48,047 nt of DNA from Verrucomicrobiaceae bacterium. GTDB taxonomy: Bacteria > Verrucomicrobiota > Verrucomicrobiia > Verrucomicrobiales > Verrucomicrobiaceae. Below are positions 8,490 through 10,932 of the stretch, piece by piece (within the stretch, counting starts at the first letter, position 1; each line of letters starts with the position of its first letter). The stretch is taken from assembly GCA_027487315.1 (NCBI GenBank), contig JAIYDW010000183.1:1-48047 (forward strand). The letters are read 5' to 3'. The notes below the pieces were generated by a model. That model ran no database searches and was not told the DNA's origin. It worked only from the letters and a program-made list of their open reading frames with translations. A program made the position numbers and the translations under genes.

Positions 8490-8495
8490 CGCGCC

Positions 8496-8677
8496 TAGCC
8501 TGGATAATTTATGAACATCGTAGCGAAAACGCTCAAAAGCCTGAAGCTGCTAGGCGGGCGCAGTTTTGAAAGGCGGAGTGCATTTGTAAATGCTCGATGC
8601 CTTTCAAAACAAGCCCAACGCAGCAGATTCGGACTTTTGGGCGGTTGCAGTAGATGGCTCATGAATTATTCAGGCTA
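8496..8677. repeat. 182-bp palindromic repeat, copy 1
   Basis: The element begins tagcctgg and ends caggcta. Its 19-bp ends are inverted repeats matching at 17 of 19 positions (8496-8514 and 8659-8677). Inside are nested inverted repeats. An 18-bp stem pairs 14 Watson-Crick and 2 G:T positions. A perfect 12-bp pair, gttttgaaaggc with gcctttcaaaac, encloses a small gcattt/aaatgc hairpin at the centre. The whole sequence can fold into one long hairpin on either strand. A second copy of exactly the same length is at 10401-10582. It encodes no obvious protein. Ends that start and stop with TA would fit a TA-target mobile element such as a Tc1/IS630-type MITE, but this is inference. Confidence 0.9.
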
Positions 8678-8801
8678 GACCGTTTCTCGAAAAGATTGTC
8701 ATTTTGATCCGGCGAGCGCAGTGGCTTCAGTGGCAAGAAAGTCGCGCAGCCCGCCATTAAATCAATAGCGGGCAAGGTGACAAGCATTCCGAGAATCGGT
8801 C
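8678..8801. repeat. 124-bp inverted repeat adjoining copy 1 of the 182-bp element
   Basis: The ends gaccgtttctcg (8678-8689) and cgagaatcggtc (8790-8801) are inverted repeats with one mismatch. The pairing continues inward: ttgtcattttg pairs with caaggtgacaa with two G:T-type positions. An additional short hairpin (cccgc...gcggg, about 8751-8773) lies inside. The element starts at the base after the 182-bp repeat and its right end touches the stop codon of the MBL-fold gene. No coding region is seen. It may act as a transcript-end hairpin for that gene or be a separate repeat family. Confidence 0.6.
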
Positions 8802-9736
8802 TACTTGAACAGCACGGACTCCCCCTCGTCCAGCACCCGCACCTGATGCGCCACCTGCAACCGGTCCGCCTCCGTCCACAACCGTTGCACCGGCTCATGC
8901 AAAGGCTCCCCACCCAGAGGAAACGTATCGTGATGCATCGGCACCAGCGCATCCCCTTCCAAAATCTGAAACGCCTCCAGCGCCTCCTCCGGATTCATGT
9001 GCACCTGCCTCCCCGACGGCGCGTCATACGCCCCGATCGGCATCAGCGCCACATCCACCTTCGCCCGCTTCCCGATCTCACTGAACCCGTCAAACATCGC
9101 ACTATCCCCGCAGTGAAACACCGTCCGCTCCGGCCCCGTGATCAAATACCCCCCAAACTGCCGGTGCGTGTCATGAATCATCCTCGCCCCCCAGTGCCGC
9201 GCCGGCGTCATCGTGATGTGCAAATCCTTGAACCGCGCCATCTGCCATGTGTCCAACTCCACGATCTGTCCAAACCCGCACCGCTTCACCAGCACCCCCA
9301 CCCCCTTCGGCACCACGATCGGCTGCCCATCCGCCAGCTTCCGCAAACTCGGCAAATGCAGGTGATCAAAATGCGCATGCGTCACCAACACCAAATCCAC
9401 CGGCGGCAAATCATGCGGCCATAGCCCCGGCTGCCTCACCCGCTTCACCGGCCCATGCCACAGCGCCCAGTTCGGATCCACCACCACATTCACCGATCCC
9501 ACCTGCAAAAAAAAGCCCGCATGCCCCAGCCACGTCACCCCCACCTCATCCGCCTGCGCCTGCGGCACCGCCTCAAACGCCCTCGCCCGCCGCCGAGGCG
9601 ATAACAACGCCGGTATCAAGACCTCCCCCAAAAACTGCAAATTCCGCTTCCGCCACCCCGGCGTCGGCAACAACCCCACCTGATTCTCCCCCAACTCCTT
9701 CCGACGAAACAGACTCCGCTGTTGGCTCGTGGCCAT
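8801..9736 (-). CDS. MBL-fold hydrolase, NAPE-PLD/UlaG-like
   Basis: The metallo-beta-lactamase signature HxHxDH is present as THAHFDHLH (H120, H122, D124, H125 from this start), preceded by TWLGHAGFFLQ and VVVDPNW. Downstream are PARHWGAR and FHCGDSAMF, typical of the NAPE-phospholipase D-like and UlaG-like branch of two-metal hydrolases, and MPIGAY and PMHHDTFPLGG follow as in that group. The natural substrate is unknown; family members cleave phosphodiester or lactone bonds. I prefer ATG 9736 because AAGGGG lies five bases upstream; ATG 9772 adds 12 residues. It is divergent from the Fur-family gene, with ~190 bp between. No signal peptide is seen, so a cytosolic location is likely. Confidence 0.85.
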   Translation of the reverse strand: MATSQQRSLFRRKELGENQVGLLPTPGWRKRNLQFLGEVLIPALLSPRRRARAFEAVPQAQADEVGVTWLGHAGFFLQVGSVNVVVDPNWALWHGPVKRVRQPGLWPHDLPPVDLVLVTHAHFDHLHLPSLRKLADGQPIVVPKGVGVLVKRCGFGQIVELDTWQMARFKDLHITMTPARHWGARMIHDTHRQFGGYLITGPERTVFHCGDSAMFDGFSEIGKRAKVDVALMPIGAYDAPSGRQVHMNPEEALEAFQILEGDALVPMHHDTFPLGGEPLHEPVQRLWTEADRLQVAHQVRVLDEGESVLFK

Positions 9737-9929
9737 CGCGGCCCCTTCTCGAGACAACGGATCAAAAATCATTGGGGAACAATATCAGACGTGAGAACAA
9801 AAGAGTTTACGACCCACCCCACCCCCTCACAAGCCTCATTTCAGGAATCTTGACCTTTTCCGACCCAATCCCTCCCCAAAACCTCATCTCAGTTGTCAAC
9901 CTCCCAAATCCTGTCTAAGCTCCCTCCTA

Positions 9930-10403
9930 ATGGACGCTCAGATCGCCGAGAGACTCAATAACCACCTCGCCAGCAAAGGCTTGCGACGCACCCGCCAGCG
10001 CGAAGTCATCGTCGACACCGTCTTCTCCTCCGACGAGCACTTCAACGCCGAAGAACTCCTCGACCGCGTCCGTGCCGTCGACCGCACCGTCTCCCGCGCC
10101 ACCGTCTACCGCACCCTCACCCTCATGGTCGAATGCGGCCTCCTCCGCCACGTCGACCTCGGCCGCGAACAAACCTACTACGACCCCAATTTCCTCGACA
10201 AACCCCAGCACAACCACCTCATCTGCATCGACTGCGACCGCGTCGTCGAGTTTGAGGACGAACACGTCGCCCTCCTCAACGACTGCATCACCCGCCGCCT
10301 CGGCTTCCGCCCCCAGATGCAAAGCATGCGCATCGAAGCCCACTGCGACGAACTCGGTCGCAACGGCACCTGCCGCTTCAAAACCGAACGCGCCGCCCGC
10401 TAG
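9930..10403 (+). CDS. Fur-family transcriptional regulator
   Basis: This is a 157-aa metal-sensing repressor of the Fur/Zur/PerR family. The winged-helix part contains LRRTRQREVIVDTVF and SRATVYRTLTLMVECGLL, the DNA-recognition region. The dimerisation part has HNHLICIDCDRVVEFED, with the HNH metal motif (residues 94-96) and the first zinc CxxC (C99 and C102). C139 and C148 near the C-terminus could complete a structural zinc site. Whether it senses iron, zinc, manganese or peroxide cannot be decided from sequence. The ferritin gene at 6.5 kb is a plausible target. Its TAG stop codon is formed by the first three bases of the 182-bp repeat copy 2. Confidence 0.92.
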   Translation: MDAQIAERLNNHLASKGLRRTRQREVIVDTVFSSDEHFNAEELLDRVRAVDRTVSRATVYRTLTLMVECGLLRHVDLGREQTYYDPNFLDKPQHNHLICIDCDRVVEFEDEHVALLNDCITRRLGFRPQMQSMRIEAHCDELGRNGTCRFKTERAAR

Positions 10404-10582
10404 CCTGGGTTATTCATGAAATTCGTTGCGAAAACGCCAGAAAGCCCGTTGATGCAAGGCGGGCGCAGTTTTGAAAGGCTGAGTGCATTTGTAAATGCTC
10501 GATGCCTTTCAAAACAAGCCCAACGCCGCAGACACGGGCTTTCTGGCGTTTGCAGTAGAAGGCTCATGAATAATCCAGGCTA
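10401..10582. repeat. 182-bp palindromic repeat, copy 2
   Basis: Same length and organisation as copy 1. The terminal inverted repeats (10401-10419 and 10564-10582) match at 18 of 19 positions. An inner 18-bp stem is perfect: aaacgccagaaagcccgt pairs with acgggctttctggcgttt. The same 12-bp gttttgaaaggc/gcctttcaaaac pair and the central gcattt/aaatgc hairpin are present. Relative to copy 1, three base pairs in the 18-bp stem differ on both sides while still pairing. The left end supplies the fur-family stop codon, and the right end lies 11 bp before the SH3-like gene. Confidence 0.9.
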
Positions 10583-10593
10583 ACCTCACACTC

Positions 10594-10932
10594 ATGTCCA
10601 CCTACATCGCCACCGCCGACTACGAAGTCATCGACCGCGCCCCCCTCACCCTCGTCGTGGGCGACCTCGTCCGCCCCGGTCAAACAGACACCGACTGGCC
10701 CGGCTGGGTCTGGGTCACCGCCATCACCGGCCGTGGCAGCTATGTCCCCGAGGAAATCCTCACCCCCCAGCCCGACGGCACCGCCCGCGTCACCCAACCC
10801 TTCCACGCCCGCGACCTCACCGTCAAAAAAGGCGACACCATCGAGTCCCTCCGCGAAGTCAAAGGCTGGCACTGGTGCAAAAACGCCACCACCGAAGGCT
10901 GGCTCCCCGCCTACCTCCTCCGCCCGGTCTAA
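10594..10932 (+). CDS. Small protein with two SH3-like domains
   Basis: The 112-aa product reads as two short beta-barrel modules. The first (residues ~3-60) has ATADYEVIDRAPLTLVVGDLV followed by WPGWVWVTAITGRGSYVPEEIL. The second (~65-112) has ALTVKKGDTIESL-type sequence, here LTVKKGDTIESLREVKGW, and ends GWLPAYLLRPV. The ALYDY-like openings, the paired tryptophans and the GWLPxxYL endings are typical of SH3 folds, which bind peptides or cell-wall material. No signal peptide is present, so it is probably cytosolic. The ligand is unknown. Transcription must start within or before repeat copy 2, because its start codon lies 11 bp after that element. Confidence 0.75.
   Translation: MSTYIATADYEVIDRAPLTLVVGDLVRPGQTDTDWPGWVWVTAITGRGSYVPEEILTPQPDGTARVTQPFHARDLTVKKGDTIESLREVKGWHWCKNATTEGWLPAYLLRPV

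Follow-up and report, generated by a model that had tools for sequence, protein, structure and literature searches.

The locus lies in a window of 48,047 nucleotides, the whole stretch of DNA that was analysed, and contains two closely similar palindromic sequences, copy 1 (8499-8674, plus strand) and copy 2 (10404-10579, plus strand). Both are 176 bp long, run from CCTG to CAGG and belong to the same subfamily (A). Copy 1 is bounded on both sides by CTAG (8495-8498 and 8675-8678, read from the sequence), and copy 2 by CTAG on the left (10400-10403) and CTAA on the right (10580-10583). The insertion point of copy 2 is the stop codon of a Fur-family regulator gene (9930-10403, plus strand), and the next gene downstream encodes an SH3-like domain (10594-10932, plus strand). 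The terminal inverted repeats of copy 2 read CCTGGGTTATTCATGA on the left (10404-10419, plus strand) and, on the minus strand, CCTGGATTATTCATGA on the right (10564-10579).

A 183-nt direct repeat spans both copies in register (window 8496-8677 and 10401-10582) at 86% identity, and repeat analysis of the window found each copy to be an inverted repeat along its entire length. Folded as RNA, each copy formed an end-to-end hairpin, with -95.6 kcal/mol (z -11.1) for copy 1 and -108.3 kcal/mol (z -14.3) for copy 2, and none of 200 shuffles of either equalled it. An earlier note on this DNA had described two hairpin-folding palindromic copies, and this description was borne out: the 19-bp outer stem, the perfect 12-bp inner stem common to both copies (GTTTTGAAAGGC/GCCTTTCAAAAC), the central hairpin and the 18-bp stem free of imperfection in copy 2 were all found. 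For the 18-bp stem of copy 1, the three two-sided changes and the two G:T changes that it reported are present, but two mismatches (A.G and C.A) had been overlooked, so pairing there is incomplete. Rfam models compared with the window gave zero matches at the gathering score.

The search for more copies that the earlier note proposed was successful in both the source genome and its relatives. A BLAST-type search of the source genome (5.87 Mb) returned about 16 places that match the element, and 14 of these were used to build a covariance model. Applied to 68 genomes of the bacterial family, this model detected the element in 14, most of the others being without it; the carriers with names are all Verrucomicrobiaceae MAGs, CE-Jul18-43 and D15.bin.11 among them. 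Matches, with both strands counted, numbered 33 in the source genome, 38 in G001 and 32 in G003. Most copies measure 174-177 bp between CC and GG, derivatives that are shorter (48-120 bp) or longer (237-354 bp) also occur, and the outer stem separates two main subfamilies, GGATNA versus GACCTA/GATCTA. The element also occurs in another family of the order (genome G214), where a 176-bp copy of about 62% identity folds alike (z -10.9). Contig-search matches in other phyla (L097 and L102) were without covariance-model support and were taken as chance. In G214, a draft of about 70% completeness, we also observed 51 matches to the element end, many of them near contig ends (for example L328-L333), which reflect strong multiplication of a related 176-bp element and of an 85-bp derivative.

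The earlier note had placed the ends of the element at TA...TA. The true ends are CCTG...CAGG, so the element proper is 176 bp, and the TA forms the two central bases of a duplicated 4-bp target. The terminal inverted repeats have the form CCTG(4 variable bases)ATTCATGA. With the ends taken as CCTG...CAGG, the left and right flanking tetranucleotides were identical in 33 of 78 copies, whereas 10,000 shuffles averaged 18.2 and never exceeded 29. At 50 independent loci, the identity of the base preceding TA on one side was associated with that on the other (p 1.4e-6), and the base following TA showed a weaker association (p 0.049). Because these bases outside TA are associated, the duplication is a 4-bp YTAR and not TA. 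It is perfect in fewer than half of the copies, and the two sides of copy 2 are one base apart (CTAG/CTAA). Two other loci showed related ends: a contig from a viral collection (L203, 1057-1239) harbours an element of 183 bp that shares these ends, is flanked by CTAG on both sides and has an unlike interior, and L088 (984-1017) holds a remnant of about 30 bp, barely more than both ends fused as a palindrome (CCGGACCTATTCATGAATAGGTCCGG), an extreme internal deletion.

Genomes with and without an insertion were also available for comparison, in line with another proposal of the earlier note. Loci L113 and L111, which come from two genomes, have a copy at the same site as copy 1 and are without an insertion at the site of copy 2, where L113 reads CGCTAACCTGACGC and L111 reads CGCTAAATTGACGC; the window at this site reads CGCTAG-CCTGGG...CCAGG-CTAACCTC. 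The ancestral site of copy 2 is CTAA, and the right duplication of copy 2 is the same as the insertion-free site of L113. Insertion-free orthologous sites also exist for the copies at L015 and L012, with target bases that have diverged. Copy 2 now provides the stop codon of the Fur-family gene (10401-10403), which is TAG here and TAA in the insertion-free sites, and it splits this gene from the next one, which in L113 lies 12 nt downstream of the stop. Across the family, open frames are avoided, with 5 of 50 insertions inside one compared with 67% of background windows, and a gene stop codon is at times used as the target (Fisher p 0.023, open frames of at least 100 codons). No orientation bias towards the neighbouring genes was found (21 to 21).

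Ends of the same kind were found on IS1380 insertion sequences. In G014, a genome of the bacterial family, four complete IS1380 copies have CCCGCATTTCTCATAC ends of the CC..GG type and perfect duplications of CTAG, CTAA, CTAG and TTAG. In G141, an order-level relative, CTAG-CCTGCATTATTCATGA stands immediately 5' of the IS1380 N-terminus, and this end is identical to the element end, including the right repeat of copy 2, at 15 of 16 positions; the G141 contigs stop inside the IS1380 element, as is typical of multi-copy insertion sequences. Genome G002 belongs to the same genus, lacks the 176-bp element and contains an internally deleted IS1380 relic with ends CCTGGATTATTCACGA and CCGGATCTATTCACGA, laid out as TTAG-CCTGGATTATTCACGA, a transposase C-terminus and then CTCGTGAATAGATCCGG-TTAG. 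The left end of this relic is 15/16 identical to the element end, and its C-terminus matches PF13701 at E 2.2e-6, which is under the curated cut-off. IS1380 and piggyBac have 4-bp duplications and CC..GG termini in common (PMC10045372). A search for the IS1380 transposase (PF13701) found none in the source genome or G003 and one weak, below-cut-off match in G001, all three assemblies being draft MAGs, which lose multi-copy insertion sequences. The earlier note had also proposed a search for full-length transposons with the same ends: the 62 end matches in the source genome included no longer autonomous element, and the genomes examined yielded no complete, fully assembled IS1380 bearing exactly these ends; the near-matching IS1380 ends are those of G141 and the G002 relic.

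We conclude that both copies are non-autonomous MITEs of the IS1380 family, presumably mobilised in trans by an IS1380-type transposase, with a probability of roughly 0.92. The repeat family, its ends, its duplication and its past mobility are directly supported by the comparisons above, and from the shared ends and target we infer the IS1380 transposase as the mover. At 176 bp the element is too short for a transposase gene, and it is present in multiple dispersed copies. An IS1380-type DDE transposase would recognise the element ends in trans, and the element would then be inserted at YTAR sites, mostly intergenic. It is an ordinary kind of element, representing a new family of clear origin whose fold is unusually well preserved. 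The earlier note was right in calling it a MITE and wrong in the family, since it proposed a Tc1/IS630 type with a 2-bp TA duplication. That assignment, which we regard as highly improbable, draws on the TA at both ends, on insertion-free orthologous sites whose length fits a TA duplication as well as a 4-bp one, and on the IS630 transposases (PF13358) in 30 of the 68 genomes of the family. However, an association of bases outside TA between the sides is expected only under a four-base duplication. In addition, IS630 was not found in G000, G001, G003, G028, G029, G050 or G099 and is missing from the copy-richest genomes, and ends of this kind were not seen at any IS630 locus that was fetched, whereas IS1380 has them. 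Transposases of the IS5/IS427 type (PF13340), present in some relatives, were rejected as owners of the ends, being missing from the copy-richest genomes and without such ends at the fetched loci.

The two-sided changes that the earlier note saw between two copies proved real across the family. In an alignment of 50 independent insertions, 95.1% of cells were paired, and two-sided change occurred at 26 of 45 pairs, in 241 cells. The paired cells, the two-sided pairs and the two-sided cells were each reached by 0 of 500 shuffles, and slid controls gave 14-45 cells. Counts of this kind are raised by relatedness, and the 45-pair structure itself came from the alignment on which it was tested, but the margin is wide. 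The two arms complement each other almost from end to end, and even highly divergent copies have kept both their pairing and their length. This covariation, directly observed between lineages, was absent within orthologous copies. Nine orthologous sets, with L240/L251 left out, contained 33 stem changes, of which 27 break a pair, 6 keep it and none is two-sided, and random substitution at the transition rate of the flanks would be expected to keep 31% of pairs, with the observed figure no better. The lack of two-sided changes is by itself poor evidence, because few are expected at the low divergence of these sets; more telling is that changes which keep a pair are not in excess. The pair L240/L251 was set apart because its elements differ widely despite orthologous flanks: at one insertion site in two genomes (L240 804-980 and L251 804-979), they differ at 31 aligned positions, 6 of them two-sided, which suggests that one copy was converted, overwritten or replaced.

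The reading in the earlier note that two-sided change means a shape being kept goes too far: the shape is kept among copies that spread, but not visibly once they are inserted, and the fold seems to be renewed in the transposing lineage and is not evidently kept by the host. It is very improbable that the element is a structured RNA under host selection, or else a hairpin for termination or RNA processing, which just happens to be repeated, with the two-sided changes arising from selection on each resident copy. The strong covariation and very stable fold, a length that stays at 176 at about 38% divergence, and the frequent position of copies next to gene ends would all fit such a host function. 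However, the stem changes of orthologous copies mostly break pairs and are never compensated, the distribution is patchy with insertion-free sites, and neither an orientation to neighbouring genes nor an Rfam match was found.

Since pairs are lost from inserted copies about as often as random mutation would break them, the fold is most likely tied to the propagation of the IS1380-type MITE and not to a host service at each site. It may matter for propagation or be regenerated in it, for example through hairpin or cruciform DNA at excision or through arm-to-arm copying at the palindrome. A full-length hairpin might be required for IS1380-type transposition, as a cruciform, single-stranded hairpin DNA or a protective RNA, although we hold this to be doubtful. 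If true, selection on the fold would be confined to the transposing lineage, and the requirement would explain the two-sided changes between lineages, the constant length at about 38% divergence and the free decay after insertion. About equally likely, and likewise put forward only tentatively, is that the element is the same and its two-sided changes are mechanical, produced when replication or repair of the palindrome transfers a mutation from one arm to the other, or when copies convert one another, without any selection on the fold. Consistent with a mechanical origin, resident copies show no preservation of pairing, and the widely different L240/L251 elements within orthologous flanks indicate that a copy can be overwritten or replaced. 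Against it, both subfamilies keep the same asymmetric unpaired stretches (TCGTNGCGA facing GCAGTAGA), which simple symmetrisation would erase, and the orthologous sets yielded no instance of one arm being corrected to match the other.

Compared with known systems, the element resembles IS1380 insertion sequences (PF13701, DDE_Tnp_1_4) in its CC..GG ends, its 4-bp YTAR duplication and the end itself (15/16 identical in G141). Unlike them, it has no transposase gene, measures 176 bp compared with about 1.8 kb, and has an interior that consists of a single long palindrome and shows no recognised similarity to that of IS1380. The hairpin MITEs RUP, NEMIS/Correia, Nezha and ERIC (general knowledge and PMC3733652) are similar in size (70-300 bp), in terminal inverted repeats and hairpin potential, and in being noncoding, intergenic and of high copy number. 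They differ in their ends and transposase family, and for the present element full-length pairing with covariation has been measured over 50 insertions. REP/REPIN sequences with RAYT transposases are also palindromic, intergenic and non-autonomous. However, REPs are 20-40 bp long with GTAG or CGTC tags (PMC3733652), whereas the present element is 176 bp, has a target duplication and carries no GTAG or CGTC tag at its ends; the CCTG...CAGG ends and the duplicated YTAR do not fit a REP/RAYT element.

When a palindrome is repeated, compensatory changes in it do not have to reflect host selection on an RNA, a lesson that rests on covariation being strong between copies and absent within orthologous ones. 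IS1380 also gains a MITE family; the open-access literature searched held nothing relevant on IS1380 MITEs or on MITEs with compensatory changes. With some 50 independent insertions whose ends and target are known, the family also offers material for studying what a full-length hairpin does in transposition. Directly adjoining copy 1, a second, unlike palindrome (AGACCGTTTCTCGA...TTCCGAGAATCGGTCT) occupies window positions 8677-8803; its L111 version has 41 additional bases, and its motif GACCGNTTCTCGAAAAG was seen again in about a dozen other fetched loci.
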